From Planosporangium flavigriseum (GTDB lineage: Bacteria; Actinomycetota; Actinomycetes; Mycobacteriales; Micromonosporaceae): 63,257 nt of DNA. Position 1 is the stretch's first letter. The number at the start of each line of letters is the position of its first letter. The translations under genes and the position numbers were made by a program. Below, piece after piece: positions 383 to 63,230 of the stretch. The DNA lies in assembly GCF_011947225.1 (NCBI RefSeq), contig NZ_JAATVW010000024.1, forward strand, positions 1 to 63,257. Direction: 5' to 3'. The notes beneath the pieces were generated by a model. That model saw nothing but the letters and a program-made list of their open reading frames with translations. It searched no databases and was not told the origin of the DNA.

Positions 383-874
383 GTGGCGTACCAGGTCGCG
401 GTGTGCGGTCCAAGCGACTGCACCGAAGCGGAGCGCGTAAGCGCTTACCGCGTCGGTCAGCTGATCGCCGAACGCGGCGCGGTTGTCATCTGCGGCGGCG
501 GCACCGGGGTCATGGGCGCTGCCGCCGCTGGCGCCCGTTCGCGGGGCGGTCTTGTGATCGGCATCCGCCCCAACGACAGCCGGACAGGCGCCTCCCCTGA
601 CCTGTCCGCAACGATCGTGACGAACATGGGCGAGGCCCGCAACGCGATCATCGTGTGGAGCGCCGACGCGGTGATCGTCGTCGGTGGTTCGTGGGGAACG
701 TTGAGTGAAGTCGCCCTCGCGAAGCGACGCGGCGACCTCCGGGTTGTCTCACTCTACGGTTGGCAGGTGCTTGACCAGTACGGGCAGCCGGTCCCGGGAA
801 TCGACGTCGCCGACAGCCCGGAAGCCGCCACCGCGCTGGCACTCGCGGATGACGACCCATCATGGACGGCGTGA
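383..874 (+). CDS. LOG-like / TIGR00725-type nucleotide-binding protein
   Basis: This 163-residue protein has a Rossmann-like glycine-rich loop at residues 38-45 (GGGTGVMG) and a second motif GGSWGTLSE at 101-109, the counterpart of the PGGxGTxxE signature of LOG (cytokinin phosphoribohydrolase) proteins. The second motif lacks the proline, which fits the TIGR00725 branch better than true LOG enzymes. Members were long mislabelled lysine decarboxylases. Substrate is not evident; a nucleotide or nucleotide-sugar is likely. GTG was taken as start because residues from there align with the fold. The stop codon is the first triplet of a 16-bp tandem repeat. No operon partner is evident. Confidence 0.75.
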   Translation: MAYQVAVCGPSDCTEAERVSAYRVGQLIAERGAVVICGGGTGVMGAAAAGARSRGGLVIGIRPNDSRTGASPDLSATIVTNMGEARNAIIVWSADAVIVVGGSWGTLSEVALAKRRGDLRVVSLYGWQVLDQYGQPVPGIDVADSPEAATALALADDDPSWTA

Positions 875-919
875 CAGACGAGCCGGATGACAGACGAACG
901 GGATGACAGACGACAGGCG
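872..919 (+). repeat. 16-bp tandem repeat beginning on a stop codon
   Basis: Three units of 16 bp (872-887, 888-903, 904-919) each begin TGACAGACGA. The first TGA is the stop codon of the LOG-like gene, so the repeat has duplicated the end of the gene. The third unit is diverged in its last bases. Confidence 0.8.
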
Positions 920-1070
920 GCGCCGTCGACACGATCGGGTCAGTGAGGGCCGCATGAGTCACACTTCTCGCCCGGCCGCCCGCCGGTAGCGCTGGATCAA
1001 GCCGGTTGCGGCGCGCCCTCAGCGACCGCCACCGCGGGATGGTCTGTACCCGGGGGCCTGGACGCTCCGC

Positions 1071-2261
1071 TCACGAGGGGACCTCCGCCTGTACGCGGGC
1101 CCGCTCGAGCTGTCCGGCGACGGAGTCAAGCAGCGAGTTCCACGCGTCCTCGAACTTCTGCAGGCCCTCTTCCTCCAACCGGCGCACCACGTCGTCGTAG
1201 TCGATTCCCGCCTGCCGAAGCTCACCGAGAATCGCCTCGGCTTCGTCGTATGTTCCGGCGATCGTGTCGCCGCGCACGACGCCGTGGTCGGCAACCGCAC
1301 TCAGCGTCGCCTCCGGCATGGTGTTGACCGTGCCCGGAGCAACGAGTTCGACCACGTACCGGGTGTCGTCGTACGCGGGGTCCTTGACACCAGTGGACGC
1401 CCAGAGTGGGCGCTGCGGCCTCGCTCCCCGCCTTGCAAGCTCTTGCCAGCGCGCGGAGTCGAAGACCCGTTCGTACTGCGCGTACGCCAGCCGAGCGTTC
1501 ACCAGCGCGGCCCGTCCGCGCAGCTCGGGCCGGCCGAGCTTGTCCAGCCGGGCATCTATCTCGGTGTCGACCCTGGAGACGAAGAAGGATGCGACCGATG
1601 CGATGCCGCGCAGGTCGTGGCCGTTCGCCGCCGCCCGCTCGAGGCCGGTGAGAAACGCTTCCATGACCGCCTCGTACCGCTCCAGGGAGAAGATCAACGT
1701 GACGTTGACGCTGATACCCGCCGCAAGCGTCTCAGTAATGGCCGGTAGGCCCTCCACCGTCGCGGGGATCTTGATGAACAGATTCGGCCGGTCCACCAAC
1801 CACCACAGCGCCCTGGCTTCAGCCACCGTCCGACGGCGGTCGCGCGCGATACGCGGGTCGACCTCGATCGACACGCACCCGTCCGTGCCGTCGGTGCGCT
1901 CGTAGACGTCGCGCAGCACGTCGCACGCCCATCGGACGTCGTACGTGGTTAGCGCCCGCACCGCCTCCCCGACGCCCGTCCCGCGCAGCGCGAGGTCGAG
2001 CACCTGCTCGTCGTAGTCCTCCCCCGAGCTGAGCGCGTTCTGAAAGATCGACGGGTTGGTCGTCACGCCCACGACCGAGGCGGTGCGAACCAGGTCCGCC
2101 AGATTGCCGCTGCGCAGTCGGGCTCGCGACAGGTCGTCCAGCCACACGGCCACGCCGGCCGCTGACAGCTCGGCCAGGGGTTGCGTTCTCACAGGCTGCG
2201 TCCTCACGGGCTGCGTTCTCACGGGCTGCGTCCTCACGGGCTGCGTTCTCAGGTCGGTCAC
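1071..2261 (-). CDS. tal: Transaldolase
   Basis: Cytoplasmic pentose-phosphate enzyme that moves a dihydroxyacetone unit between sedoheptulose 7-phosphate and glyceraldehyde 3-phosphate. Seen: [11 protein letters not shown] near the N-terminus, LFIKIPAT carrying the Schiff-base lysine, INVTLIFS-like (SVNVTLIFS), and a C-terminal region typical of the long actinobacterial class. Length is 396 residues from the GTG at 2261, chosen because GGAGG lies five bases upstream; an in-frame GTG at 2279 is possible but would put that GGAGG inside the gene. The N-terminus is odd: four to five copies of TQPVR encoded by a 15-bp tandem repeat precede the family-conserved part. Glucose-6-phosphate and F420 genes lie a few kilobases away. 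Confidence 0.95.
2182..2251 (-). repeat. 15-bp tandem repeat in the 5' end of tal
   Basis: About 4.7 units of 15 bp, alternating between two one-base variants, encode repeated TQPVR immediately after the transaldolase start. The unit length preserves the reading frame. Confidence 0.85.
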
Positions 2262-2301
2262 GGGCTCCTCCAGCCGCACTTGAATGCTTTATGGTGACCG
2301 C

Positions 2302-2338
2302 CGGGTCCGAGCCTCGCGGGGGGAGAGGCTCGGACCCG
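2302..2338 (-). terminator. Stem-loop downstream of the acyl-CoA dehydrogenase
   Basis: A perfect 14-bp inverted repeat (arms 2302-2315 and 2325-2338, 9-base G-rich loop) lies 80 bp after the minus-strand dehydrogenase stop and before the tal start. There is no clear U-tract, as is common in high-GC actinomycete terminators. Confidence 0.7.
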
Positions 2339-2417
2339 ACGCAGGGGGCTCACCTGACGAACAGGTCCGACCGCCACCAGCGGTTTTGGTTCATGGCTGG
2401 CGGCCCCGGGAGCCCCA

Positions 2418-3620: not shown

Positions 3621-3698
3621 GCAATGGGCTCCTTGACCGGTTGCGTTCCCTGGACCTAGGGTCAGTGGAATCGTTTCATGTCGAGGGGATGAAACCAT

Positions 3699-4832: not shown

Positions 4833-4872
4833 AGCCCCGCCCCAAACCCGACGACGAGAGCAGGTGCCCCAC

Positions 4873-6394: not shown

Positions 6395-6454
6395 CTCAGC
6401 ACACGACACCTCAGCACACGACACCTCAGCACACGGCACCTCACCACTCGATAC
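6395..6454 (+). repeat. 15-bp tandem repeat in the leader of the second aldehyde dehydrogenase
   Basis: Four units of 15 bp (consensus CTCAGCACACGACAC) end 17 bases before the ATG at 6472 and directly before the ribosome site GGGAGAGAG. The fourth unit is the most diverged. Confidence 0.85.
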
Positions 6455-6471
6455 CCGGGAGAGAGCGTCAC

Positions 6472-7968: not shown

Positions 7969-7982
7969 TGTCCCCCGTCTCT

Positions 7983-8094
7983 GTCCAGGGAGCTCTGTCC
8001 AGGGAGCTCTGTCCAGAGAGCTCTGTCCAGAGAGCTCTGTCCAGGGAGCTCTGTCCAGGGAGCTCTGTCCAGGGAGCTCTGTCCAGGGAGTGTC
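7983..8094 (+). repeat. 14-bp repeat, eight units, multiplying the fbiD ribosome-binding site
   Basis: Eight uninterrupted 14-bp units (GTCCAGGGAGCTCT; units three and four have AGAGAG) run from 7983 to 8094 and end on the base before the GTG start of fbiD. Every unit contains a GGGAG or GAGAG ribosome-site-like core; only the last (8086-8090) is correctly spaced for the start. The AGAGCTCT parts are also palindromic. Confidence 0.95.
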
Positions 8095-8793: not shown

Positions 8794-8797
8794 CGAC

Positions 8798-8852
8798 GGG
8801 CGCCAGCCCCTACCCCGCGGGCGCCAGCCCCTACTCCTCGTGCGCCAGCCCT
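8798..8852 (-). repeat. 21-bp repeat duplicating the C-terminal codons and stop of the acetyltransferase
   Basis: On the minus strand the gene ends GLAHEE-stop. The next seven codons in the same frame read GLAPAG-stop and the following ones GLAPVV, running into the end of fbiD. The core GCGCCAGCCC recurs every 21 bp (8800, 8821, 8842 on the plus strand). The gene terminus, stop codon included, has thus been tandemly copied in frame. Confidence 0.8.
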
Positions 8853-12836: not shown

Positions 12837-12870
12837 TCCTCCTCACTGGGGGCGCCGTGCGCCGGAGAGG

Positions 12871-12927
12871 CATGGCGAAGCCGAGCGGGCATGGCGAAGC
12901 CGAGCGGGCATGGCGAAGCCGCCGGGC
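12871..12927 (-). repeat. 19-bp tandem repeat in the fbiC leader
   Basis: Three 19-bp units (plus strand CATGGCGAAGCCGAGCGGG) at 12871, 12890 and 12909, about 35 bp upstream of the fbiC start. Unit length is not a multiple of three, consistent with a noncoding position. Confidence 0.85.
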
Positions 12928-18680: not shown

Positions 18681-19679
18681 TCAGGAGCGCGCGGCCTCGA
18701 CTGCGGCGGCGTCCGGCATGCCGGCACGCGCACCCACGGCACGAACGGAGAGGGACGCGGCGACGGTAGCCACCGCCACGGCGTCGGACAGGGGGTCACC
18801 CGCCGCTAGGCGGGTCGTCAGGACCCCGTTGAAGGTGTCGCCCGCACCGGTCGTGTCCCGGACGGCGACCGGATGGGGCGGCACGTGGTCGACCTCGTGG
18901 TCGGACCGCACCACCAGCGCTCCGTCGCCACCGAGCGTGACGACCACGGGCGCGCCCGTACAGGCTGCGAGGGTGCGCGCCGCCTCCGCTGCGGCACCAC
19001 CCGCCCCCGCCGAACCCGTGATCAATGGGGACCCGTCCGCGACAAGGCGGACGAGGTCCGCCGACTCCGTCGCGTTCGGCGTCAGGATGGGGCCCAACTT
19101 GAGGAGGTCGAGAACCTCCGGGATGACCGGCGCGGGATTGAGAACACACGGCACTCCCGCGGCCGTCGCCGCCTCCACGGCCGCCGCGACAGCGTCGCCC
19201 GGAATCTCCGTGCTGACCAGAACGCAGCCCACCGCGGGCAGCGCGTCCGCGAGCGCCGCACGTACGTGGCCGGCCGACACGGCGGCGTTCGCCCCCGCGG
19301 CGACGGCGATCTGATTCTCGCCGCTCGGATCGACCACGATCAGCGCGACCCCCGTTGTGTGTGCGGAGAGCATCGCGACACCGCTGACATCGACGCCCTC
19401 CGACCGTAGGTCGTCCAGCGCGCTGCGACCGTTGTCGTCCACACCCACGGCGCCGACCAGACGTACAGCCGCGCCGGCCCGTGCGGCGGCGACGGCGGCG
19501 TTCGCGCCCTTGCCGCCGCCGTGGCTCTCCAATCGGGGACCCACCACCGTCTCCCCGGGCCCAGGTAGGCGCGTGGCGGCCACCACGAGGTCAACGTTGA
19601 TGGCCCCGACGACCACGACCCGCGGCGCGTTCGGGTCGGGGGGTGACGATTCCGGTGTCATGGGCGTATCCGGCGTCAT
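18681..19679 (-). CDS. rbsK: Ribokinase (PfkB family)
   Basis: 332-residue sugar kinase phosphorylating ribose to ribose 5-phosphate. Seen: VVVVGAINVDLVVAATRLPGPGETV, the substrate-binding GGGKGANAAVAAARAG, the anion hole and catalytic base in DTTGAGDTFNGV, and NPAPV. ATG 19679 overlaps the stop of the LacI gene (ATGA), giving translational coupling. The start is odd: an 18-bp duplication gives MTPDTP-MTPESS, so an in-frame second ATG (19661) is an alternative start. Being coupled to a LacI regulator, its expression probably follows a sugar signal. Confidence 0.93.
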   Translation of the reverse strand: MTPDTPMTPESSPPDPNAPRVVVVGAINVDLVVAATRLPGPGETVVGPRLESHGGGKGANAAVAAARAGAAVRLVGAVGVDDNGRSALDDLRSEGVDVSGVAMLSAHTTGVALIVVDPSGENQIAVAAGANAAVSAGHVRAALADALPAVGCVLVSTEIPGDAVAAAVEAATAAGVPCVLNPAPVIPEVLDLLKLGPILTPNATESADLVRLVADGSPLITGSAGAGGAAAEAARTLAACTGAPVVVTLGGDGALVVRSDHEVDHVPPHPVAVRDTTGAGDTFNGVLTTRLAAGDPLSDAVAVATVAASLSVRAVGARAGMPDAAAVEAARS

Positions 19680-20710
19680 GGGCGTGCTCCAGGTGGCGGC
19701 GCGACGGAGTCGCGGATCTGGATCGTCACGGGAAACTGATCGGCCGAGCGGTCCGCCGACTTGTCTTCGAGCAGGTCGAAGAGGCGGTTCGCAGCCGCGA
19801 ACCCCATGTCGCGCGCCGGCTGGCGCACGGTGGTGAGTGCAGGCGTGAGCAGCGACGCGACCGGCAGATCGTCGAAGCCCACGATGCTCAGGTCGTCAGG
19901 CACGGTGAGCCCAACCGATTTGCAGTACTGCAGCGCTCCGATGGCCATCAGGTCGTTGGCGCACAGCAGCGCGGTGGGCCGCTCCTCCGGCGGGCCGGCG
20001 AACAGCTGTGCCGCCAACTTCATGCCGGAGTCCTGGCGGTAGTCGCCCGCCAGCACCGGGAGGTCGTCGGGGTCGCGTCCCGCGGCGGCGATCGCCTCAC
20101 GGTATCCCGCCAGGCGCTGCTGTGCGGTCCACAGCTGCGCCGGACCGCCGATGATCGCGAGCTGCTCGTGCCCCTGCTCAAGGACGTGGCGCGCGATCGC
20201 CCGCGCCCCGCGGCGGCTGTCGGAGACCACCGCCGGGAGGTCGAACCCGGGGATCTGCTCGTCGACGAGGACCACGGGGCCGAGGCGGGTGAGCTCGAGC
20301 AGCGAACTCGGCGACATGTCGGCGCCGGACAGATACACCACCCCGTCGAGCCGCTGACTGCGCAGGAGCCGGGCGTTCACCGAGCCCGCCGCCCCGGTCG
20401 CTTCCGGCGCACAGAGCACCACGAGGACGTCCCGCTCTGACGCGGCACGCTCCACGCCCTCGGCGAGCAGGGCGAAGAACTGGTTCGCCAGGTCCGGCAC
20501 CACGAGGCCGATGGTGGACGCGGACCGCCGTTTCAGGCTCCGCGCCGACTCGTTCGGCGTGTAGTTGAGGACCTCCACCGCGTCCAGCACCCGCGCCCGT
20601 CGATCCGCCGCCACCGGCCCACTGTTGTTCAGCACGTAGCTCACGGTGCTAACGGAGACGCCGGCATGCTGCGCGACGTCTTTCATGGTGGGCCGGCGGC
20701 GGTTCGTCAT
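19676..20710 (-). CDS. LacI-family transcriptional regulator
   Basis: About 344 residues. The N-terminal helix-turn-helix reads TMKDVAQHAGVSVSTVSYVLNNS, with the hinge helix ARSLKRRSASTIGLVVPD, followed by a periplasmic-binding-protein-like effector domain ending in SIVGFDDLPVASLLTPALTTV. ATG 20710 starts MTNRRRP; an in-frame ATG at 20734 would overlap the upstream gene by 20 nt. No clear ribosome site is seen, so coupling to the upstream gene is likely. It probably represses its own operon (GATase-like protein, LacI, ribokinase); the effector is likely a pentose or derivative (inference). Confidence 0.93.
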   Translation of the reverse strand: MTNRRRPTMKDVAQHAGVSVSTVSYVLNNSGPVAADRRARVLDAVEVLNYTPNESARSLKRRSASTIGLVVPDLANQFFALLAEGVERAASERDVLVVLCAPEATGAAGSVNARLLRSQRLDGVVYLSGADMSPSSLLELTRLGPVVLVDEQIPGFDLPAVVSDSRRGARAIARHVLEQGHEQLAIIGGPAQLWTAQQRLAGYREAIAAAGRDPDDLPVLAGDYRQDSGMKLAAQLFAGPPEERPTALLCANDLMAIGALQYCKSVGLTVPDDLSIVGFDDLPVASLLTPALTTVRQPARDMGFAAANRLFDLLEDKSADRSADQFPVTIQIRDSVAPPPGARP

Positions 20711-29144: not shown

Positions 29145-29222
29145 GACTCCGTTCTCGGAGACGGGGGCAGGGTTCTCGGGACAGGGTTCTCGGGACAGGG
29201 TTCTCGGGGACGGTTTCTCGGA
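29145..29222 (-). repeat. 14-bp tandem repeat in the GH3 leader
   Basis: Three to four 14-bp units (plus strand ACAGGGTTCTCGGG) at 29167-29222, plus a diverged copy at about 29145-29159 in which three bases differ so that the minus strand reads GGAG, the ribosome site of the GH3 gene. Confidence 0.8.
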
Positions 29223-29450: not shown

Positions 29451-29514
29451 CATCGTGGGCTTGAAGCCTCGTGGGCCCGAAGCCTCGTGGGCCCGAAGCC
29501 TCGTGGGCCCCAAA
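29451..29514 (+). repeat. 16-bp tandem repeat upstream of the methyltransferase
   Basis: Four 16-bp units (consensus CCTCGTGGGCCCGAAG) from 29451 to 29514, the first and last diverged. They lie 90 bp before the ATG chosen for the methyltransferase. No ribosome site is inside the unit. Confidence 0.85.
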
Positions 29515-30837: not shown

Positions 30838-31494
30838 TCAGCGCCGCGACGGTGACGACGACGCGCTCGCGGCCGATACCGTGCAGGTCAGGTTCTGTAC
30901 GCCGGGCGGCGCGGTTCCGCTGCCGACGAAGCCGAACGTGGCGGTGTTCTTCGCCGTGGCCAGGGCGTTCCAGCCTTCGCTGTCGACCCGTACGGCCGAC
31001 TTGGTCTGCGTGAAGTGACCGTTCCACAACTGCATGACCGTCTGGTCGCTCGGGAAGGTCCACGTCACCGTCCAGCCGCCGATGGGCGTCGTGCCGTTGC
31101 TGCGTACCGTCACGTTGGCCTGAAACCCGGTCGGCCATGCACCGGCGACCGTGAAGGACGCGCTGCATCCGGGCCGCTCACTCGGGGTCGGCGAGGGGGC
31201 ACGGCCGGCGGTCGGTGCGGCGCGACCGCCGCCCTGCGATCCGTTCCCGTTCGCGTGCAGCCGTTGCGCCAGGAAAATCGACAGGGTAGCGACGATCAGC
31301 GCGGCAAGCGCCCAAGCCGCTGCGCGGAGGTCCCCTCCCACCGGCCGCTTGGCGCGGCCGCCGGCCCGATCCGTGCGGTCGGCGCTACCGGTCTGATCGC
31401 CACCCTCGGGCCGATCAACATCGTCGGGCCGATCAGCACCCTCGGGCCGATCAGCATCGTCGGGCCGATCAGCACCGTCTGACGCACGATTCAC
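30838..31494 (-). CDS. Membrane-tethered CBM2 carbohydrate-binding protein
   Basis: 218 residues in three parts. Residues 1-55: a charged cytoplasmic segment built from six-residue repeats (GADRPD/DADRPE). About 60-82: one membrane helix (AAWALAALIVATLSIFLA). About 115-210: a family 2 carbohydrate-binding module outside the cell, with SASFTVAGAWPTGFQANVTV, GGWTVTWTFPSDQTVMQLWNG and the conserved Trp residues that stack on cellulose or chitin. There is no catalytic domain. GTG 31494 is preferred; starts further upstream are possible. Together with the nearby secreted GH16 and GH3 it may keep the cell near polysaccharide (inference). Confidence 0.8.
   Translation of the reverse strand: MNRASDGADRPDDADRPEGADRPDDVDRPEGGDQTGSADRTDRAGGRAKRPVGGDLRAAAWALAALIVATLSIFLAQRLHANGNGSQGGGRAAPTAGRAPSPTPSERPGCSASFTVAGAWPTGFQANVTVRSNGTTPIGGWTVTWTFPSDQTVMQLWNGHFTQTKSAVRVDSEGWNALATAKNTATFGFVGSGTAPPGVQNLTCTVSAASASSSPSRR
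31393..31482 (-). repeat. 18-bp tandem repeat in the 5' end of the CBM2 gene
   Basis: Five 18-bp units (for example CCGATCAGCACCCTCGGG on the plus strand) encode alternating GADRPD and DxDRPE hexapeptides right after the start codon. The unit length preserves the frame. Confidence 0.85.
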
Positions 31495-34800: not shown

Positions 34801-36449
34801 TGCGCGCCAGCCCGGTCGGAATGGACCATGAGATCCCGCACCCCACCGATCGCGCCGTCGTTTCGGCAGCGGCGTCCGTCGGCGTGTCGCCGGAGGACGG
34901 TGTCCGCAGCTGGCGCGTGATCGACGACGTGCCGTTCGAACCCGCCCGCGGCTACCACGCCACCCTCGGCGCGATCCCGCGTGGTCGGCTGCTCAGCGTG
35001 AAGGGCGCGCCGGAGATCATCCTGCCGGCGTGCGCGCGCTGGCGCCGAGACGACAAGGTCGTCCCGATGGACGCAGCGGCCCGGGCCTCGATCGAGGCGG
35101 AGCTGAACCGGCTGGCCCGGCAGGGTTTCCGGGTCCTCGCCGTGGCCCAGCGCCCCGTCGGCGCCACCACCAAGCACATCACCCCCGGTCTGATCGCGAA
35201 CCTGGAGTTTCTCGGTCTGCTCGCGCTGGCCGACTCCGCCCGCCCCGAGGCAGCGGCCGCGGTCGCCGGACTGCGCAAGGCCGGCGTCAAGGTGATCATG
35301 CTGACCGGCGACCACCCGACGACCGCCGAGGCCGTCGCCGACGAACTCAACATCCTCGACAGCGGCATCGTGGTGACCGGCTCCGAACTGGACAACCTCG
35401 ACGACGATAAGTTCGCCGAGGTACTGCCGAGCGTGTCGGTCTTCGCCCGCGTCACCCCCACCCACAAGGTGCGCATCGTCCAGGCGCTGCAGCGCCAGGG
35501 GCACACCGTGGCGATGACCGGCGACGGGGCCAACGACGCCGCCGCCATCCGGCTTGCCGACGTCGGCATCGCCCTGGGCCAGCGGGGTACCGACGCCGCA
35601 CGGGAGTCGGCCGACCTCATCGTCACCGACGACCGGATCGAGACGATCATCGACGCGGTCGTGGAGGGGCGCGCGATGTGGGCGTCGATACGCGACGCCG
35701 TGTCCGTGCTGCTCGGTGGCAATCTGGGCGAGATCGCCTTCGCGCTCGGTACGGGCCTGCTCGCACCCACCGGCTCGCCGCTCAACGCCCGGCAACTACT
35801 GCTGGTCAACCTGCTCACCGACCTGCTGCCGTCCCTGGCCCTGTCGGTCCGGCCGCCGCCGAAGCGTGACCCGGAAGACCTGCTGCACGAGGGCCCGGAG
35901 GCGTCGCTCGGCCGTAGCCTCGCCCGCGACACCGCCGTTCGCGCCATCGCCACCGCCGGGGCCACCGCGGGGGCGTGGGTCGTCGCGCGCGGTACGGGTA
36001 CCTCGGCGCGCGCCAGCACAGTGGCGCTCGTGACCCTCGTCGGCACGCAGCTGGGCCAGACCCTGGTCGCCGGGCGCCGCAGCCCGCTGGTCCTCGGCGC
36101 CAGCGCGGTGTCCGCCGCGGCGCTCGGCGCCATCATCCAGACGCCGGGGGTCAGCCAGTTCTTCGGTTGCCGCCCGATGGGGCCGGTCGGCTGGGCCACG
36201 AGCCTGTGGGCGAGCGGAATTGGTACTGCGGGTGCCGTCGCCGCATCCAGAGCCGCTGAGCGGGTATGGCCCGACGAAGGACAGCTCAACGGCACGGGTC
36301 CTGATTTCGCTGCGCCCGAGCGAGATCCGAATCTGCCCAATGTGGACGAACGATCCGTGGACGAACAATCCGTGGACGAGGAGCCCGTGGACGACCAGCT
36401 CGCGGAGGAACAGCCGAGCCCGGCTCGGCGCGGAAGGGAGCAGGCATGA
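31884..36449 (+). CDS. Giant CtpI-like cation-transporting P-type ATPase
   Basis: 1521-residue membrane ATPase, much longer than usual and comparable in plan to mycobacterial CtpI. Residues 30-110: a degenerate HMA-like ferredoxin fold without a CxxC. About 110-630: an actinobacteria-specific region with an inactive-looking half. Then the functional pump: TGES near 777, PEGLP at 891-895 (the P2/Ca-type sequence, not CPC of heavy-metal pumps), phosphorylation site DKTGT with Asp 934, and TGDGANDAAAIRLADVG. The ion is unknown. The last 50 residues are acidic VDExS/P repeats. ATG 31884 lacks a strong ribosome site. The stop overlaps the next start (ATGA). Confidence 0.92.
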   Translation: MNRLLTALRRLPVATARALPVPGRSRIFRRSWVGDGRAHIEVRGIRRPGNEDAARELEKRLEQIRGVHWAEVNAVLGRVVVAFDEGTISLGDIVDTVEDVEEAHDLETEGFPQDGPEHPADVEPLYRELVALGGDALGVVLSAVRPLAGRRNVPSDALSVLALVDASPRLRRELDERFGRAATDLTLALTRSIAQGLSPGPPLGVLIDATYRAILISEVTARRAVWQRREAELPARAGEEPLEPVHVPPRPAPLPPGSVERYADAAFFVALATAVGAVTVTRNRIHARTALTVFAPRAARLSREVFAARLGRALCARGVIPFDNQALRRLDRVDTVVIDSRVLTSGRFTIGELRGVDADLPPEEESRLRAQAANAMDPSDPRKVVRRSGWTLGPLNKVAPDGRQAVRAAAERLRTPGGVTLGLVRGNTLVAVLVAVPELSPNAADLVASARSVGPLVIAGVGSGLGDRFSADAVVPTGTHLAAEIRKLQKQGRVVALVASEGAAALTAADVAIGVLADGGPVPWGADLLCGPGLQQACRILDAVAAAHAVSRRGALIALYGSVAAALLALSGPRAGQFGRARLASGATAMAAMAMGAWEARSVDERPDPIPNETTPWHALDVDTALDRLESSPAGLSEEEARARLAEQPSADGHREDGFARTALDELANPLTPLLATGAAMSAATGSVTDATLIGSVMGANALLGAAQRVSADRALRRLVRASSVGARVRRAGTELEVNADEIVPGDVISLRAGDAVPADCRVLDAANLEVDESTLTGESQLVAKTAAPTAAADVAERRSMLYEGTIVAAGQATCLVVATGPHSELGRSGRAVGAGPPTRGVQARLMLLTSASIPIALGSAAALVVGGLLRGRPLATTLGTAVSLAVAAVPEGLPLVATVGQIAAARRLSQRGALVRDPSTTEALGRVDVLCFDKTGTLTEGRVGLQMVSDGLDEAPLDRLSPNTRQVLAAGLRASPVGMDHEIPHPTDRAVVSAAASVGVSPEDGVRSWRVIDDVPFEPARGYHATLGAIPRGRLLSVKGAPEIILPACARWRRDDKVVPMDAAARASIEAELNRLARQGFRVLAVAQRPVGATTKHITPGLIANLEFLGLLALADSARPEAAAAVAGLRKAGVKVIMLTGDHPTTAEAVADELNILDSGIVVTGSELDNLDDDKFAEVLPSVSVFARVTPTHKVRIVQALQRQGHTVAMTGDGANDAAAIRLADVGIALGQRGTDAARESADLIVTDDRIETIIDAVVEGRAMWASIRDAVSVLLGGNLGEIAFALGTGLLAPTGSPLNARQLLLVNLLTDLLPSLALSVRPPPKRDPEDLLHEGPEASLGRSLARDTAVRAIATAGATAGAWVVARGTGTSARASTVALVTLVGTQLGQTLVAGRRSPLVLGASAVSAAALGAIIQTPGVSQFFGCRPMGPVGWATSLWASGIGTAGAVAASRAAERVWPDEGQLNGTGPDFAAPERDPNLPNVDERSVDEQSVDEEPVDDQLAEEQPSPARRGREQA
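36342..36401 (+). repeat. 15-bp tandem repeat encoding the acidic tail of the ATPase
   Basis: Four 15-bp units (GTGGACGAACGATCC-like) encode VDERS-VDEQS-VDEEP-VDDQL near the end of the P-type ATPase. The first three units differ at 1-5 positions; the frame is kept. Confidence 0.85.
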
Positions 36450-37339
36450 CGACGCAAACGACGGCACGTGGTACCCGAACCGCTGAGAAGCGCGCGGCGC
36501 CGCGGAAGAGAGCACCCGCGGCGGCTGCCACGGCCACGGCAGCGACGGCGGCGCGGCGTGGGCGGGCGGCCGCCGCACCTCCGGAGCGTGGACCGCAGAA
36601 GCGTGCGGGCGCACAGAAGCGGGCGGCAGCGGAGAAGCGGGCCCCGGCGGAGAAGCGCGCACCGGCCCGCAAGCGCGCGGCAGCAGAGAAGCGCGCACCC
36701 GCGGCGGAAAAGCGCGCACCGGCCCGCAAGCGCGCGGCAGCGGAGAAGCGCGCACCCGCGGCCGAGAAGCGAGCACCGGCGGCCGAGAAGCGCGCTCCTG
36801 CTCGCAAGCGTGCGGCAGCGGCAGCACCGGAGACGCCACCAGCGGCGGCCCGCGCCGAACGGGAAGCAGAACTGGCGATGCTGCCGCAGCAGCGCGCTGC
36901 GGCACCCCGCCGTGAGAGAGCGGCGGCGCCCCCGGAACCCCCCGCACCGCCTCCCGTGCCGCTGCGGGAAGAGGAGGCACCGGAGGAGGAGCGCCCATCG
37001 GCGCAGCGGGAGGAGCGCCGAGAAGAGCGCCGGGAGGAGCGGCCGGCAGCGCGGGCCGAGGCGGAAGGTGAGCGCGGCATCACGGTGCCCGTCATCGGCG
37101 CCCGCATCCCCGCGCCCCCGCTGCCCCATCTGCCGCACCTGCGGAAGTTGCCCTCACCGACCGGCAGGCCGGGCCGTGTGCTCTGGTTGGGCGGCCTCAT
37201 CGGCGCCGCCGTTCTGGGCGCGATCGAGTGGCCGATCGCCGCGGTCCTCGCGGCCGGCACCTGGGTGATCGAACGGCTTGCGAGAGCCGCGGTCCGGGAG
37301 GAGCTCCAGCGCCATCCTGAACGCGAAGGCGGAGGATAG
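36446..37339 (+). CDS. Histone H1-like basic protein with a C-terminal membrane hairpin
   Basis: 297 residues. Residues 1-130 are Lys/Arg/Ala-rich with repeated AEKRAPA and ARKRAAA units, like the tails of eukaryotic H1 and bacterial H1-like proteins. Residues 130-215 are Ala/Pro/Glu/Arg-rich. About 225-285 contain two hydrophobic helices (VLWLGGLIGAAVLGAIEWP, AAVLAAGTWVIERLA), so the protein should be membrane-anchored with the basic tail in the cytoplasm. ATG overlaps the ATPase stop (ATGA), so both are made together. It may dock on the acidic ATPase tail, or tether DNA or another polyanion to the membrane; both ideas are inference. Confidence 0.82.
   Translation: MTTQTTARGTRTAEKRAAPRKRAPAAAATATAATAARRGRAAAAPPERGPQKRAGAQKRAAAEKRAPAEKRAPARKRAAAEKRAPAAEKRAPARKRAAAEKRAPAAEKRAPAAEKRAPARKRAAAAAPETPPAAARAEREAELAMLPQQRAAAPRRERAAAPPEPPAPPPVPLREEEAPEEERPSAQREERREERREERPAARAEAEGERGITVPVIGARIPAPPLPHLPHLRKLPSPTGRPGRVLWLGGLIGAAVLGAIEWPIAAVLAAGTWVIERLARAAVREELQRHPEREGGG
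36590..36815 (+). repeat. Imperfect repeats encoding KRAPA/KRAAA units
   Basis: Degenerate 15-24 bp units (core GAGAAGCGCGCACC) encode the basic tail of the H1-like protein. Several 60-bp stretches are near-identical, indicating recent duplication by slippage or unequal exchange. Confidence 0.8.
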
Positions 37340-44464: not shown

Positions 44465-45445
44465 GTGCCACGCAACGCCGAAAATGATCAGCAACGTAAT
44501 AGTGAAAACGATCAGGAACTTGGCAGAGCGTCCAGCTACATGCGACGTTACCGGCGCGGACGCCACACCACGGAATCCCTGATCGGCCCATTCCTCAACG
44601 GGGCAGTCGAGAACATCGCCCTCGCACGGAAATCAAAGCTCGATCCGCTGCTGACGGACATTGCCACAAACATCGCGGACGAGGTGACCGCGAGCATCGA
44701 GTTCGCCAGGGCACCGAAGTTCAAGCCGGTCCTGCCGGGCAAACCACGGGTCAATCCGTTCCTGACGCAAGTGGCCGCGAGCATCGCGATCGCCGGGATC
44801 GGTTTCACGACCTGGTCCATCGCGTCTCCGGCGAGCGCCGCCCCTGAGGACCGGCCACCGACTGCCGCTGCCAGCAATCCGCAGCTCGCCACCGCGGCAG
44901 ACCGCTCACGTACCGACAACGCGGCCTCGCGTAGTCATACCCGCACGGCGCCCGAGCAAAACTCCGCGCCGGCGGAGCAGCACCAGCAGCAGGCGCCCGC
45001 GAAGCCTGCGAAGCCCGCGCCGGTCGCCGGGCTCAACAACTCACAAATGGACAACGCCATCGCCATCGTCGAGGCGGGCAAGGAGATGAACCTGCCACGC
45101 CGCGCCTACGTGGTGGCGATCTCCACCGCCCTGCAGGAGAGCAACCTGCAGGTCCTCGCCAACCCGGGCGTAGCGGGGTCGATGGACCACCCGAACCAGG
45201 GCGTCGGGTACGACCACGACTCGATCGGCCTGTTCCAGCAGCGGCCGAACTGGGGCGGCGTCGACGACCTGATGGACCCGAAGGAATCCGCCCGCCGGTT
45301 CTACGCCGTGCTGGCCAAGCTTCCCGGCTGGGAGCAGCTTGACGTCACCGTCGCGGCGCAGCGGGTCCAGGTGTCGGCCTTCCCGGACGCGTACGCCAAG
45401 CACCAGCAGCGTGCGGAGCAGATCGTGGACGCCATCCTGGCGTGA
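44465..45445 (+). CDS. Secreted lysozyme-like (lytic transglycosylase-fold) protein
   Basis: 326 residues. After a basic N-terminus, a hydrophobic segment (FLTQVAASIAIAGIGFTTWSIA, about residues 98-120) ends with SPASAAPEDR, an unusually distant signal or signal anchor. A Ser/Ala/Gln-rich linker follows, and about residues 195-326 form a lysozyme-like domain: MDNAIAIVEAGKEMNLPRRA, ISTALQESNLQVLANPG and HDSIGLFQQRPNWGG. The Glu in ALQESNL is the likely catalytic acid. It probably trims peptidoglycan. GTG 44465 is uncertain; an in-frame ATG at 44540 is an alternative. Four tandem repeats begin on the base after the stop codon. Confidence 0.83.
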   Translation: MPRNAENDQQRNSENDQELGRASSYMRRYRRGRHTTESLIGPFLNGAVENIALARKSKLDPLLTDIATNIADEVTASIEFARAPKFKPVLPGKPRVNPFLTQVAASIAIAGIGFTTWSIASPASAAPEDRPPTAAASNPQLATAADRSRTDNAASRSHTRTAPEQNSAPAEQHQQQAPAKPAKPAPVAGLNNSQMDNAIAIVEAGKEMNLPRRAYVVAISTALQESNLQVLANPGVAGSMDHPNQGVGYDHDSIGLFQQRPNWGGVDDLMDPKESARRFYAVLAKLPGWEQLDVTVAAQRVQVSAFPDAYAKHQQRAEQIVDAILA

Positions 45446-45527
45446 GGAGGTGCGGCATGCGGAGGTGCGGCATGCGGAGGTGCGGCGTGCGGAGGTGCGG
45501 CGTGCGGCGCTCGCGACCGCCGCACCT
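45446..45527 (+). repeat. 15-bp tandem repeat merged with a terminator hairpin
   Basis: Four units of GGAGGTGCGGCATGC (45446-45505; last two with GCGTGC) start directly after the stop codon of the lysozyme-like gene. AGGTGCGGCG in the last unit (45493-45502) pairs perfectly with CGCCGCACCT at 45518-45527, so the repeats are copies of the left arm of the terminator. Confidence 0.85.
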
Positions 45528-46893: not shown

Positions 46894-48501
46894 GTGGCGC
46901 GGATCACCACCGAATTGCTCAGATGGCGCACCACCGCCGGCGTCGACGGGCACGCGGCGCCGGCTGGCGCGACCATGAAACCGGTGACCATCCCACCGAA
47001 CCCGTCGCACGTCGCGGTCGACCCGCGGGCCACGGCGCCATCCCAGACGGGCCGGGCGCGGGCCGCGACCCTGTGGCGCGCCGGCACGGCCGCGTCGGCA
47101 ACGGCAGTGCTGGCCGGGACGCTGTACGCGGCCGGCACCGGTCGCTTCGACCGGATACCGCTGCTGGATCCGGTCCTCGCGGTGACCGTCGAGGCGCTGG
47201 CGGCGCTCGCTCTGGTCGGCTCGTGGATGTCCCGGCAGCGGCGCTGGCTCACCGTCCTACTGCCGGCGGTCGTGGCGCTGTCGACGGCGGTGACCGCGAT
47301 CGTCGCGGCCCTCCTGCGGCTGACCGGCACGGTGACGGACGCCTACCCGGCCAGCTTCGCGCTGTGGGTCGGGATGGCGCTGGCCGCGCTGATCAGCCTA
47401 CCCGTCGTCGTCACGCGGGCCGGCGCGCTCCGGCGATGGGCGGCGGGCACGGCGGTGCCGCTGACCCTCAGCGGGGCGCTGCTGCTGATGAACAACGAGT
47501 ACGGCGTGTGGCCGACCGCCGGCGACCTGCTCGGGCGCACCGAGGCGGTCAACGCCCAGGTGCTCAACACCCAGGTGCTCAACACCCACGCCCTCAACGC
47601 CCACACCCTCAACGGCAAGGCACTCAACGGTAGGACGCTCAGCGGCGGCAAGGCGCTCGACAGCGGGGTGCGCGACGACCGGATGCCGAACCCGCCACCC
47701 GGCATGCTCCCGCCGGCCAGGGGCATCCTCGTGGCGCTGGACCCGCCGGCGGTCAGCTCCCACTTCGCGCACCGTCCCGGCAGCGCCTATCTGCCTCCCG
47801 CGTACTTCACGCCGGCCCGCACGGAGCTACCGGTGATCGTCATGCTGCCCGGCACACCGGGCGGCACCATGCAGTGGCCCACCTCCGGGAAGGCGACCGC
47901 GACCGCGGACGCGTACGCCGCCGCCCACCACGGCCGGGCGCCGATCCTGGTCTTCGTCGACCCGAACGGCTCGGCCACCGCGGACACCGAGTGCGTGGAC
48001 GGTCCGCAGGGCAACGCCGAGACCTACCTGACCGTGGACGTACCGGCGTTCGTGACGGCGGCCCTGCGGATACCGCACGTCGCCAGCCGCTGGGCGGTCG
48101 CCGGGTTCTCCGCGGGCGGAACCTGTGCTGTCGATCTCGCCTTACGGCACCCGAACACGTTCAGGCACTTCGTCGATCTCGCCGGGGACATCTGCCCCAA
48201 CCTCGGCAACCGGGCCCAGACCCGGGTGGCGCTGTTCGGCGGGTCATGGGGCGCGATGGAAGATCACGACCCGCTCCGGCTGCTGCGGACACGCCGCTAC
48301 GAAGGCGTCACCGGCTGGTTCGCCGCCGGGGTCGAGGATGTCGGCAAGCTCAGGGTGTCGAGGAGGCTCGCGGCGGCTGCGTCGAGAAGGGGCCTGATCG
48401 TGCATGAGTTCACCGGGGTGGCCGGTCACAACTGGCAGTTCGCCAGCTACGCGTTCGGCCGGGTCCTGCCCGAGTTGTCAGGCGACCTCGGGCTCCGCTG
48501 A
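46894..48501 (+). CDS. Membrane-anchored alpha/beta-hydrolase (esterase/antigen 85-like)
   Basis: 535 residues. About residues 65-190 hold four membrane helices. A linker of six five-residue units (VLNTQ, VLNTH, ALNAH, TLNGK, ALNGR, TLSGG) follows at about 220-250. The catalytic domain (about 290-530) is an alpha/beta-hydrolase: LPVIVMLPGTPGG, FVDPNGSATADTECVDG, the nucleophile elbow GFSAGGTCAVDLAL, and a late His in GVAGHNWQFAS. It resembles Esterase-D/Ag85-like acyltransferases facing the outside, so mycolate-like or cell-wall acyl transfer is possible. GTG 46894 is uncertain; ATG 46975 is an alternative. Confidence 0.82.
   Translation: MARITTELLRWRTTAGVDGHAAPAGATMKPVTIPPNPSHVAVDPRATAPSQTGRARAATLWRAGTAASATAVLAGTLYAAGTGRFDRIPLLDPVLAVTVEALAALALVGSWMSRQRRWLTVLLPAVVALSTAVTAIVAALLRLTGTVTDAYPASFALWVGMALAALISLPVVVTRAGALRRWAAGTAVPLTLSGALLLMNNEYGVWPTAGDLLGRTEAVNAQVLNTQVLNTHALNAHTLNGKALNGRTLSGGKALDSGVRDDRMPNPPPGMLPPARGILVALDPPAVSSHFAHRPGSAYLPPAYFTPARTELPVIVMLPGTPGGTMQWPTSGKATATADAYAAAHHGRAPILVFVDPNGSATADTECVDGPQGNAETYLTVDVPAFVTAALRIPHVASRWAVAGFSAGGTCAVDLALRHPNTFRHFVDLAGDICPNLGNRAQTRVALFGGSWGAMEDHDPLRLLRTRRYEGVTGWFAAGVEDVGKLRVSRRLAAAASRRGLIVHEFTGVAGHNWQFASYAFGRVLPELSGDLGLR
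47548..47637 (+). repeat. 15-bp tandem repeat encoding a five-residue linker repeat
   Basis: Six 15-bp units (CTCAACACCCAGGTG-like) encode xLNxx pentapeptides in the linker between the membrane helices and the hydrolase domain. The repeated Leu-Asn register recalls pentapeptide-repeat proteins, though the run is short. Confidence 0.8.
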
Positions 48502-50338: not shown

Positions 50339-51283
50339 TCAGCTCCTCTCACGGGTGGTTGCCGACGTTGCGGTGTGCGCGCCGAACGCGCGGCCCAGCT
50401 TGCGTACCTGTTCCTCCATCAGCGGCACCGAGCGGCGCGCCGCCCGGCCCACGATCGCGTCCGCGATGGGGCCCGTGGTGATGGTCCGGAGCGCCTGGAT
50501 GGCGGCGATGGCCCGGGGGACGTAGATGCGGCGGCGGCGCCGTTCGATGCCGTCGACGAAGGCGGTCGCGCAGGCCTCGACCGAGGTGTACGTGTTGAGC
50601 GGCCAGGGCAGCTTGCGCAGCGTGTCGCCGAACTCGGGAAGGTCATCCTTGGCGTCGCGCACCATGTCGGTGTCGATCCAGACCGGGTGGGCGGTGCCGA
50701 CGGCCACGCCCCGGTGGGCGAGCTCGAGCCGGATGGCGTTGCCGAACTGCTCCACCCCCGCCTTGGAGGCGCAGTACGCGGCCATGCCGGGCAGTACGGT
50801 GAAGGCCGCGGCCGAGGACACGAGCAGGAAGTACCCCCGGCTGGCGATGACATGTTCAACGGTGGCCCCGACCGTGCGCATGACCCCGATCAGGTTCACG
50901 TCGACGGTCCGGACGAACGCCTCGATGTCACCGACCGCGATCGTGCCCCGGTTGGCGACGCCCGCGTTGGCGACCACGGCGTCGATGCCGCCCAACGCCT
51001 CGACCGTGCCGCGCACCGCTTGCTCCAGGCTGGCCTGATCGGTGACGTCGCACTCGTACCAGACATGCCGGTCACCAGCGTCGGCGCTCGCGCCGGCCCC
51101 GGCGTTCAAGTCCCGCGCCCCGGCGTTCAAGTCCCGCGCCACGGCCGCGAGGCGCTCGGGCTCCAGGCCGACGAGCGCGACCCGGGCGCCGCGGGCCGCC
51201 GCGACGCGGGCGGTGTGCTCACCGATCCCGCGCGCGGCGCCCGTGACCAGGACGGTCTTACCTGCGAGCGACTGTGATGTCAC
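50339..51283 (-). CDS. Short-chain dehydrogenase/reductase
   Basis: 314 residues: VLVTGAARGIGEHTAR (TGxxxGxG, cofactor binding), VVANAGVANRG, and catalytic YCASKAG with Ser in LLVSSAAAF. GTG 51283 follows GGGGAGG and overlaps the monooxygenase stop by GTGA. The middle of the operon, it could oxidise an alcohol to the ketone used by the flavin monooxygenase. A 21-bp duplication encodes ARDLNAG twice (about residues 47-60), between the nucleotide-binding strands. Confidence 0.92.
   Translation of the reverse strand: MTSQSLAGKTVLVTGAARGIGEHTARVAAARGARVALVGLEPERLAAVARDLNAGARDLNAGAGASADAGDRHVWYECDVTDQASLEQAVRGTVEALGGIDAVVANAGVANRGTIAVGDIEAFVRTVDVNLIGVMRTVGATVEHVIASRGYFLLVSSAAAFTVLPGMAAYCASKAGVEQFGNAIRLELAHRGVAVGTAHPVWIDTDMVRDAKDDLPEFGDTLRKLPWPLNTYTSVEACATAFVDGIERRRRRIYVPRAIAAIQALRTITTGPIADAIVGRAARRSVPLMEEQVRKLGRAFGAHTATSATTRERS
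51096..51138 (-). repeat. 21-bp direct duplication inside the SDR gene
   Basis: Two near-identical 21-bp copies (core GGCGTTCAAGTCCCGCGCC on the plus strand) encode ARDLNAG-ARDLNAG. The frame is preserved. Confidence 0.8.
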
Positions 51284-52800: not shown

Positions 52801-52868
52801 GATTGCGCTCCCACTGAACCAACGCGAACACTGATCGACGCGAACACTGAATCCACGCGAAGGCGATC

Positions 52869-57169: not shown

Positions 57170-57206
57170 TCGGTCTGTCCTGCTGGCCTTTGTTCCGCTC
57201 TGCCGC

Positions 57207-57272
57207 GGCCTTGCTCGCCCGGCCTTGCTCGCCCGGCCTTGCTCGCCCGGCCTGCTGCCCGGCCTGCTGCCC
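57207..57272 (+). repeat. 14-bp and 12-bp tandem repeats in the leader of the LCP gene
   Basis: Three 14-bp units GGCCTTGCTCGCCC (57207-57248) followed by two 12-bp units GGCCTGCTGCCC (57249-57272), about 100 bp upstream of the LCP start. Confidence 0.85.
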
Positions 57273-57374
57273 GGCCGGGCGAACATCACCCACAGTCTCT
57301 CTCATGAGGGGTCCCACCTGGCCGATCTGATTCGTCGGCGCCGATTGGCCGGCGGGCAAAAGCAAGGGGGGCCG

Positions 57375-58568
57375 ATGGGACGGCGATGGCGGTGGGTGGC
57401 GATCAGCGTGGCGACCGCGCTGGTGCTCGTCGCTGCGGGGGCCGTCACGGCGGCGTGGCTGCTCGGCCGCTCGGTCGACCACAACCTCACCCGCACCAAC
57501 GCGTTGGCCGAGGTGCCCAGCAGCGCCCGCCCGACCGAGACGGTCACCAGCGCGCTGAACGTACTCCTCCTGGGCAGCGACTCCCGTAACCCCGGCGCCA
57601 CCGCTTCCTCGCGAAGCGACACGATGATGCTGCTCCACCTCGACGCCGGGCATCGCCACGCGTACGCCATCTCGATCCCACGCGACACCTGGGTGCGCAT
57701 TCCCGCCTCCGCGGACGGCCGGCACAGCGCCACCATGGCGAAGATCAACTCAGCGTACGCCCGGGGCGGCGCCTCGCTGGCCGTACATACGGTCGAAGCC
57801 TTCACCGGGGTCCGGATCGACCACGTCGTCGTCATCGACTTCGCCGGCTTCCAGCAGGTCGTCGACGCCCTCGGCGGGGTCGACCTGACCGTGGACCAGA
57901 CGATCACCTCGATCTTCCCGCCGCACCGCACCTTCGTGCAGGGCCGCCGGCACTTCACCGGGGCGGAGGCGCTGGACTACGTCCGCCAGCGCTACCAGTT
58001 CGCCGATGGTGACTTCGCCCGCGAGCGGCACCAGCAGCAGTTTCTCCAGGCCCTCCTGGACAAGGCGACCGCTAGCGGCACGCTCACCGACATCAGCCGG
58101 CTGACCGGCTTCCTCCGCGCGGCAGCCCGGACCGTCACCGTCGACCAGGGCTTCGACCTGGTCGACGTCGCCCTGAAGGTGCGGCACCTGCGCAGCGGCG
58201 ACATCACGTTCCTGAGCAGCCCGAGCGCGGGGACCGACTGGGAAGGCGACCAGAGCGTGGTGCGGCCGGACACCGCCACTGCGCAGGCGCTGTACGCGGC
58301 GATGGCCAGCGACACCCTGGCCCAGTGGCTCGCGACCTCCTCCGCCAGCCCGCAACCGATGACCAACAAGCCCCGGCCGGTCACGCCGTCCCGGTCGGCC
58401 AGGCCAACCCCGCCGGTCGCTCCGCGCCGGACCGTCACCCCGCCTCTGCCGGTCAACCCGTCCGGCACCGGCACCGCGTCCGGTACGGACAGCCCGTCCG
58501 GCACCGGCAGCCCGTCCACGTCCGCGCTCCCGAGCGCCTTGGCGACCCCGTCTCCGGCCGCGACTTGA
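57375..58568 (+). CDS. LytR-CpsA-Psr family cell-wall ligase-like protein
   Basis: 397 residues. One N-terminal membrane helix (VAISVATALVLVAAGAVTAAWLLG), then an extracellular LCP domain: LNVLLLGSDSR, SRSDTMMLLHLD, SIPRDTWVRI, INSAYARGG, and DYVRQRYQFADGDFARERHQQQ with the conserved Arg and Asp residues for pyrophosphate-lipid binding. LCP proteins attach glycopolymers to peptidoglycan. The tail (about 345-397) is a Pro/Thr/Ser-rich repetitive linker. ATG 57375 follows AAGGGGGG; upstream in-frame codons pass through tandem repeats and lack a ribosome site. Confidence 0.93.
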   Translation: MGRRWRWVAISVATALVLVAAGAVTAAWLLGRSVDHNLTRTNALAEVPSSARPTETVTSALNVLLLGSDSRNPGATASSRSDTMMLLHLDAGHRHAYAISIPRDTWVRIPASADGRHSATMAKINSAYARGGASLAVHTVEAFTGVRIDHVVVIDFAGFQQVVDALGGVDLTVDQTITSIFPPHRTFVQGRRHFTGAEALDYVRQRYQFADGDFARERHQQQFLQALLDKATASGTLTDISRLTGFLRAAARTVTVDQGFDLVDVALKVRHLRSGDITFLSSPSAGTDWEGDQSVVRPDTATAQALYAAMASDTLAQWLATSSASPQPMTNKPRPVTPSRSARPTPPVAPRRTVTPPLPVNPSGTGTASGTDSPSGTGSPSTSALPSALATPSPAAT

Positions 58569-62148: not shown

Positions 62149-62253
62149 GGCAGGACCTCCTGGGACGTGCGGTGAGATTATGCTCACGTCTTCGGATGAT
62201 TGCCTCAACTACCGCCCTAAACCCGGGACGTTTGACGTGCAGGAGCGCTCGCC

Positions 62254-62778
62254 ATGAACCAAGAGCCCCGCTCAATGCCCGACTTCCCCGCCGGTGCGGG
62301 ACGAACGGCCCGGCTGCTCGACGCCGTCGACCGGCAGATCCTCGACGCGCTCGTCCGCGACGGACGCGCGTCGATCCGCACCCTGGCTGAGCGCATCCAC
62401 ATCTCACGCACCAACGCGTACGCGCGGGTGGAGCGCCTGCTCCGGGAGGGCGTGATCACCGGCTTCCGGGCCGAGGTCGCGCCCGAGCGGGCGGGACTGG
62501 GGACCTCCGCGTACGTCAGCATCACGATCGAACAGAACACGTGGCGGGAGGTGTCGGCGCGGCTGGCTCGGGTCCGGTACGTGCAGCACGCCGCGCTGTT
62601 GGGCGGGGACCACGACGTGCTCGCCCTGGTCCGCGCGCCCGACAACGCGGCGCTGCGCGATCTGGTACTCAACCGGGTCCAGGCCATTCCGGGGGTGCTG
62701 TCGACCCGGACCTGGCTGGTCTTCGAGGAGTTCGACGGCGTCGACACGCCGTGGGCGGCATCAGATCAGCGGACCTGA
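62254..62778 (+). CDS. Lrp/AsnC-family regulator of the bkd operon
   Basis: 174 residues. HTH in LDAVDRQILDALVRDGRASIRTLAERIHISRTNAYARVERLLREG, then a RAM ligand-binding domain (SAYVSITIEQNTWREVSARL). Divergent from the keto acid dehydrogenase operon by 105 bp, so it resembles bkdR, which senses branched-chain amino acids. AGGAG nine bases before ATG 62254. Confidence 0.92.
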   Translation: MNQEPRSMPDFPAGAGRTARLLDAVDRQILDALVRDGRASIRTLAERIHISRTNAYARVERLLREGVITGFRAEVAPERAGLGTSAYVSITIEQNTWREVSARLARVRYVQHAALLGGDHDVLALVRAPDNAALRDLVLNRVQAIPGVLSTRTWLVFEEFDGVDTPWAASDQRT

Positions 62779-63230
62779 AGATCGATACAGGCAGGGGGTG
62801 ATCCTTCTATGCGTCGGATCCTCCTTGTGCATCACCTGTGAGCTGCGAATAGGCGCGCCGGGCCCGACCTCTTCACCATGAAGTAAAGGGCGCTAACAGT
62901 AAATAGAGACAACGACTCAGTTCGATGTCTGCGACATTTGAGGGGTTGCCCGCCGGAACCTGAGGTGAGCTTGATCACCAACAAACGTCTGCATCCGGCA
63001 TGTTGGACGCCGATCTGATCATGGCATGGGTCACGTCAAGGACACGTGACGGGAGTCACCGGAAGTGAGCACCTTCTCGTCCGCAGCCACGGCGCCGGGA
63101 CACCGGACGGTCCGGCCAGCCATGCACAGGTACAGGCAGAGGTCCAGGCACAGGCAGAGGTCCAGGCACAGGCAGAGGTCCAGGCACAGGCAGAGGTCCA
63201 GGCACAGGCACAGGCACAGATAGGAGCACG
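62779..63230 (+). other. Leader region upstream of the last, partial gene
   Basis: 450 bp without a clear gene. It contains two small inverted repeats: GGTGA ... TCACC at 62964-62979 and GTCACGT ... ACGTGAC at 63030-63050 (seven-base arms, seven-base loop). The final part is an 18-bp tandem repeat. Part (about 62880-62945) is less GC-rich and may hold a promoter. No known riboswitch was recognised. Confidence 0.5.
63127..63218 (+). repeat. 18-bp tandem repeat directly upstream of a ribosome-binding site
   Basis: Four full 18-bp units (CAGGCACAGGCAGAGGTC, the first with one change) from 63127 to 63198, then a decayed six-base CAGGCA run to 63218. The ribosome site AGGAG (63222-63226) and ATG 63231 follow immediately. 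Confidence 0.9.

Follow-up and report, generated by a model that had tools for sequence, protein, structure and literature searches.

Short tandem repeats are scattered through a 63,257-nucleotide stretch of the Planosporangium flavigriseum genome (bases 1-63257 of contig C17; hereafter the window), and the question taken up here is where in the genome such arrays are placed relative to the starts and stops of genes. Several described systems are close to them. The Borg repeats of archaea have units of similar size that are mutually unrelated, recent and rarely common to relatives, and, as here, their genic units are divisible by three while the intergenic ones mostly are not (PMC9879509). Unlike the arrays here, Borg units are perfect and A-rich, and in passages of that paper no asymmetry between stops and starts is described for them. 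Mycobacterial variable-number tandem repeats (VNTRs) and mycobacterial interspersed repetitive units (MIRUs) offer a second parallel in the rnc-fpg1 gap, where, according to passages of PMC2734929, tandem repeats have grown in a lineage-specific way between conserved actinobacterial genes; in M. tuberculosis the repeat structure starts 40 bp after the rnc stop. The same passages give MIRUs as 40-100-bp units at 41 places, whereas the units here are mutually unrelated, and, again unlike the arrays here, the rnc-fpg1 array runs up to the following start codon and reportedly varies with expression. A survey of prokaryotic satellites (PMC6749651) resembles our data in its unique arrays scattered over the genome and its long repeats that are mostly multiples of three; it covers other repeat sizes and thresholds, and the term "stop codon" occurs 0 times in its main text. 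Finally, van Passel and co-workers explained the skew of mononucleotide repeats to gene termini by harm to genes (PMC2621210, in part), a principle we share. Their runs lie inside genes and are mainly skewed to the 5' end, whereas the longer units described here lie mostly at or behind the 3' end and avoid the 5' end. Within one open library we found no title or abstract opening on stop-codon-anchored arrays.

The genome (5.72 Mb in 85 contigs, high GC) was sampled over 2.06 Mb, made up of the window and 100 stretches of 20 kb. Comparison samples were 400 kb of a congener (G001), 400 kb of a complete genome from the same family (G006) and, as a fourth data set, the 45 GC-rich loci (GC at least 66%) chosen out of 80 other named loci. 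A further 22 of these loci, at 56-66% GC, were left out because coverage by our gene caller was only 51% there (11 arrays; gaps with an array 0/14 convergent, 1/56 co-directional and 1/15 divergent), and for the 13 loci below 56% GC arrays were only counted (11). Unless stated otherwise an array is a Tandem Repeats Finder (TRF) call with a score of at least 60 and a period of at least 10. Arrays of 600 bp or more, among them two resembling clustered regularly interspaced short palindromic repeats (CRISPR), were excluded from the classed sets, which hold 255 arrays from our genome (window included), 56 from G001 and 99 from G006.

Genes were called on 20-kb pieces with a home-made script that weighs the composition of each frame, the start codon and the strength of the ribosome site. 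When checked against an annotated stretch of Streptomyces DNA, it found 38/39 stops, placed 31/38 starts exactly and 34/38 within 30 nt, so its stops are reliable and its starts fairly so; it also made two calls with no counterpart in the compared list, of which one was the tail of an edge-cut gene. Versions with 77-82% coding coverage were superseded by one with 84-85%, with which the contrast between stops and starts first appeared. Wrong start calls should blur an avoidance of starts rather than produce one.

In all three genomes arrays were enriched in non-coding DNA and around stops, and around starts they stood at or below the random level. In our own sample a stop was no more than 30 nt away for 25.5% of arrays, where random placement gave 10.8% (none of 500 trials reached the observed value); for starts the observed share was 12.5% and the random one 11.6% (p=0.35). 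In G001 the shares were 35.7% observed and 11.6% random at stops, and 12.5% and 12.8% at starts; in G006 they were 24.2% and 10.8% at stops, and 9.1% and 11.5% at starts. A second null, in which mainly non-coding arrays were re-placed solely within mainly non-coding DNA, sharpened the contrast: 33.3% of such arrays were within 10 nt of a stop against 14.0% expected (G001, 53% against 19%; G006, 36% against 20%), and 7.1% were within 10 nt of a start against 18.1% expected (G001, 5% against 26%; G006, 7% against 24%). Counted base by base over the three samples, arrays covered 0.36% of the first 15 coding nucleotides and 3.6-5.5% of the 90 nt after stops. An earlier note, made from the letters of the window, had held that these repeats sit systematically at gene starts and stops, and had proposed measuring their distance to gene ends against a randomized control. 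Arrays are indeed nearer to gene ends than chance, and the claim stands for stops; at starts they are no more frequent than expected, and depleted at the shortest range.

The asymmetry is equally clear for arrays that contain a gene boundary. With the window excluded and the four data sets pooled, 49 arrays contained a stop and 8 a start (binomial p=3e-8). Counts were 62 and 13 at a score cut-off of 50 and 32 and 5 at 80, so the asymmetry holds at all three cut-offs, and its direction is the same in each of the four data sets. Gaps between genes, counted over the same pooled data and limited to 20-400 bp, give a consistent result: an array was present in 39/280 convergent, 63/1255 co-directional and 7/437 divergent gaps, and the convergent excess over co-directional gaps is significant (p=8e-7). 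Expressed per flanking stop, the rate is 7.0% in convergent and 5.0% in co-directional gaps, compared with 1.6% per gap in divergent gaps, which have no flanking stop. As a rough rule, the array count in a short gap follows the number of stops that flank it.

These arrays are not chance repeats, since a first sample of 1.26 Mb (window included) held 158 of them against 7 in one first-order Markov copy, and its 86 coding arrays fell to 16 after codon shuffling. Selection on reading frame is plain in coding arrays, as the earlier note had proposed from the window: 249/266 have a period divisible by three, compared with 26/70 in gaps up to 400 bp, which is near the chance level of one third (window included in both). 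Gaps over 400 bp are intermediate (35/57, window included), and their in-frame arrays probably mark genes missed by the caller. The prevalence of in-frame coding units, together with the avoidance of starts, speaks against contingency (phase-variation) repeats as a general rule. A further suggestion, that arrays are tied to protein tails, fared unevenly: coding arrays were within 60 nt of a gene end in 26.2% of cases against 16.3% by chance in our genome and, less clearly, in 25.7% against 17.1% in G001 (p=0.06), and G006 had no such enrichment (8.9% against 14.6%).

We examined the anatomy of arrays at the stop in the 56 array-stop pairs of the three samples, where one convergent-gap array can hold two stops. 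In 47/56 pairs the array extends at most one unit into the gene, which puts the gene's own stop in the first copy. Where the whole stop is in the array, a downstream copy of its position is present in 53/54 pairs, and the next copy is still a stop in 37/53. To give both sides equal room, we limited a further count to stops with at least 200 bp of gap behind them (co-directional) or at least 150 bp (convergent). The 5' edges of arrays then numbered 15 per 19,840 nt within 20 nt of the stop and 23 per 39,680 nt at 20-100 nt behind it (p=0.45), with 2 per 9,920 nt at 20-40 nt ahead of it; with these few events no stop-specific hot spot was detectable over the DNA behind the stop. The picture, drawn from small numbers, is of a step and not a peak, as tolerance would predict, with a safe zone that opens once a unit holds the stop.

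Alignment of five stop-spanning arrays with an array-free congener shows what happens to the protein. In four of them (locus L220 9501-9553 and locus L094 4822-4860, 8049-8101 and 14964-15039) the forward protein has the same end as its congener counterpart, with the copies downstream of it, although at L094 4850 the facing gene has a longer tail than in the congener (74 vs 68 aa). In the fifth (L094 3579-3643) the array lies within the protein tail (222 aa against 181 aa in the congener); the gene pair there is 40 nt apart and in the congener overlaps by 4 nt.

Comparison with relatives shows that the arrays differ even between congeners. Between our genome and G001, where the sampled parts have 102 reciprocal best hits (median identity 71.5%), 37 pairs of neighbouring genes are common to both; 7 of their gaps hold an array in our genome alone, 2 in G001 alone and 0 in both. 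In 23 gaps shared with G006 the counts are 0, 3 and 0. Neither outcome that the earlier note named as refuting it was thus seen: arrays are nearer to gene ends than chance, and they are not the same in relatives. The arrays are lineage-specific and local, as would be expected from the earlier note's view of independent slippage in place of one mobile repeat. Among 226 units, 60 pairs shared an 11-mer (mean 40.6 and maximum 60 in 50 shuffles), so that any surplus of common 11-mers is slight at best and the units are essentially unrelated. The arrays show two marks of VNTRs or minisatellites: units of roughly 10-100 bp joined head to tail, and unit sequences that are locus-specific and mutually unrelated. 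We rejected membership in the MIRU class or any one mobile repeat family, as the units form no family and the array at 7979 has a single match in its own whole genome, itself. Array counts per 20-kb piece of G006 show by eye no clear gradient with distance from dnaA (4.41 Mb).

We consider it probable that these are short-lived, minisatellite-type arrays: local duplications arise widely, selection removes the harmful ones, and those that hold a stop are tolerated. The best reading is thus ordinary VNTR biology with a clean asymmetry between stops and starts. Local duplications with units of about 12-60 bp would arise at many places in the genome, the mutational step presumably being replication slippage or recombination between short direct repeats. 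Within coding sequence nearly only in-frame units would survive selection, and arrays close to promoters, ribosome sites and start codons would be removed. When a duplicated segment holds a stop, the extra copies would fall downstream, the first stop would still terminate the protein, and nothing would be lost. Tolerance from the stop onward leads to the expectation that array number in short gaps follows the count of flanking stops. The positions, the frames, the asymmetry, the lack of sharing with a congener and the retained protein ends (4/5) are direct observations, of which we infer selection to be the cause.

Several observations weigh against this account. Without a length filter, divergent gaps (23/529) are not poorer in arrays than co-directional ones (85/2113; convergent, 44/526), a loss of contrast that we attribute to genes missed by the caller in long gaps. 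With the score cut-off raised to 80, convergent gaps have 5.5% per flanking stop and co-directional ones 2.5%, which is why the per-stop rule is a rough one. The 45 other GC-rich loci alone give 3/46 convergent, 10/278 co-directional and 0/110 divergent gaps with an array, so the convergent excess is not established outside this family, and the search for a peak at the stop rests on few events. Lastly, among the 47 arrays that reach no more than one unit into the gene, 23 have a period divisible by three (p=0.03 compared with one third; 24 of all 56 pairs, p=0.16), which does not fit plain tolerance. This signal is too weak for us to accept in-frame back-up stops as the explanation.

The foremost competing explanation places the pattern in the origin of the arrays and not in selection, with stops and convergent gene ends acting as mutational hot spots through colliding transcription, R-loops or stalled forks. 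It draws on the richness of convergent gaps, which hold an array in 10/33 cases in G001 and 12/41 in G006, and on their significant excess over co-directional gaps. Counted per flanking stop the rates are 7% and 5%, there is no significant peak at the stop once room is equalized, and the in-frame coding units and the avoidance of starts would require selection in any case. We therefore regard hot spots as an unlikely source of the pattern.

Less likely still is that arrays are retained for a function at the 3' end, as terminators, transcript spacers or back-up stops. The frequent survival of a stop in the next copy and the surplus of in-frame periods at gene ends would fit such a role, although young repeats are expected to retain stop copies anyway. 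We compared the folding of tandem copies of the consensus unit with that of shuffled units for 46 convergent arrays; units were limited to 60 bp, arrays needed at least 2 copies, and non-coding arrays had to be flanked on either side by a called gene. There was no overall bias (mean z -0.22, standard error 0.19; 6/46 below -1.5), and we rejected intrinsic terminators as the identity of the arrays; individual arrays with z below -3 exist. The arrays are also not conserved, and, according to PMC6764699, a test for selection favouring additional stops in bacteria was negative. A related possibility, to which we assign a similarly small chance, is that stops are true seeds of duplication via translation or transcription termination, and that repeated stops and stretched 3' ends are kept for a while as transcript separators. 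If this were true, the genome would have a self-made, fast-changing layer of 3' spacers.

We give very little credence to the view of the earlier note that arrays at both ends of genes adjust translation or protein tails genome-wide. The window itself lends it some color, with 5 of its 13 non-coding or edge arrays on the start side and one array that provides the probable ribosome site for the gene at 8095, and in M. tuberculosis an upstream repeat has been linked to expression level (PMC2734929, in part). Genome-wide tuning nevertheless finds no footing, as starts are avoided and not preferred in our genome and in both relatives, and coding arrays in G006 are not enriched at protein tails. 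At single start-side arrays a local effect may exist; the most suggestive case is 7979-8090, with its candidate ribosome site for the gene at 8095, a CofC-like gene whose Pfam match starts at residue 8. That the whole pattern stems from faulty gene calls or from repeats that arise by chance at high GC, as a home-made caller run on 20-kb pieces and apparent unrecognized coding sequence in long called gaps might suggest, is hardly credible given the Streptomyces check, the near-empty Markov copy and an asymmetry that persists across score cut-offs and data sets.

The window is an array hotspot with an unusual start-side share, and the earlier note generalized from an unusual sample. It holds 20 arrays in 63 kb and is the densest stretch sampled: 47 overlapping 60-kb stretches average 6.2 arrays each, and none of them holds more than 16. 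Contig C13 (L094, L220-L222) is similar, with 26 arrays in 80 kb. Elsewhere the start-side share of non-coding or edge arrays is 12/93 (Fisher p=0.034 against the window, post hoc). We rejected the idea that the window is a contaminant contig, as it matches the sampled genome in composition. Relatives of its PGI and FMO-like genes occur in the congeners G001-G003 at 90-92% and 81-83% identity, and these share one contig in each of G001 and G002.

TRF recovered all 17 of the roughly seventeen loci listed earlier, with edges shifted by up to 19 bases, and added three (19394, 52812 and 58457; Table 1). Nearly all had been said to touch a gene end. Eleven of the 20 do touch a called gene end or lie within 60 nt of one in the adjoining non-coding DNA; coding calls contain another 7, and 2 lie in neither kind of place.

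Table 1. Tandem arrays of the window (TRF score at least 60, period at least 10); starts are those of called genes.
Array	Positions	Strand	Place
16 bp x 2.6	872..913	+	Spans a stop: opens with the TGA of a + frame ending at 874
15/30 bp array	2178..2251	-	24 nt upstream of the called start of a transaldolase-like gene; within the first codons in a longer frame
15 bp x 4.1	6395..6455	+	58 nt after a stop, 16 nt ahead of the ATG of an aldehyde dehydrogenase gene
14 bp x 8.0	7979..8090	+	Last unit supplies AGGGAG 4 nt upstream of the GTG of the CofC-like gene at 8095
21 bp x 2.6	8797..8851	.	Convergent gap: 3 nt after one stop, spans the facing stop at 8831
19 bp x 2.8	12869..12921	-	About 35 nt upstream of the called fbiC start
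25 bp x 2.0	19394..19441	-	Within the ribokinase-like gene; absent from the earlier list
18 bp x 1.9	19651..19685	-	Spans the stop at 19676; at the start region of the ribokinase-like gene
14 bp x 4.1	29164..29221	-	80 nt upstream of the called start of a glycosyl hydrolase family 3 gene
16 bp x 3.6	29453..29510	.	Divergent gap
18/36 bp array	31401..31479	-	59 nt upstream of the called start of a cellulose-binding-domain protein gene; in its N-terminal part in a longer frame
15 bp x 3.5	36342..36394	+	Final codons of a P-type ATPase gene
18/21/57 bp array, degenerate	36597..36795	+	Within a 297-aa frame (36446-37339) with no Pfam match
15/30 bp array	45439..45507	+	Spans the stop of a + frame ending at 45445
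15 bp x 6.1	47538..47628	+	Within an esterase-like gene
21 bp x 2.4	51096..51145	-	Within a short-chain dehydrogenase gene
17 bp x 3.0	52812..52861	-	11 nt upstream of the called start of the FMO-like gene; absent from the earlier list
14 bp x 5.4	57206..57276	+	36 nt after a stop; about 100 nt upstream of the called start of a LytR-type gene
18 bp x 3.4	58457..58517	+	Within the LytR-type gene, near its end; absent from the earlier list
18 bp x 4.9	63127..63214	.	At the window end, inside a weak 71-aa gene call; class uncertain

Some features of the window and of the genome stand apart from this catalogue. The array at 45439-45507 has the unit GGAGGTGCGGCATGC, a repeated look-alike of a ribosome site plus ATG directly after the stop, and the next called gene is on the opposite strand. 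The 297-aa frame at 36446-37339 comes after the very long P-type ATPase gene (a 1521-aa frame). The protein encoded by fbiC (10386-12836) is 75% identical to one from G024, a member of a different family in the order. Its identity to the other listed copies, among them those of the congeners and a further one in our own genome (G000:C45), is about 50% or less; the window fbiC looks like a laterally acquired second copy. A CRISPR identity was rejected for the arrays of the window, whose short units are contiguous. Elsewhere in the same genome there are CRISPR-like arrays at L136 11377-17875, L137 14360-18212 and perhaps L096 3043-3194, with repeats of the kind GGGATCATCCCCGCG...GGGGAGCAC in the TRF consensus; they are separate from the main finding.

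Our results counsel caution against inferring function from repeats that touch gene ends. The arrays may also lengthen gaps and separate overlapping gene pairs, as in the one case at L094 3579-3643. The rough rule that arrays per short gap track flanking stops is simple and can be applied to any annotated genome. Taken as a natural map of where extra DNA is tolerated, the arrays place that tolerance from the stop onward, with very little of it near ribosome sites and starts.

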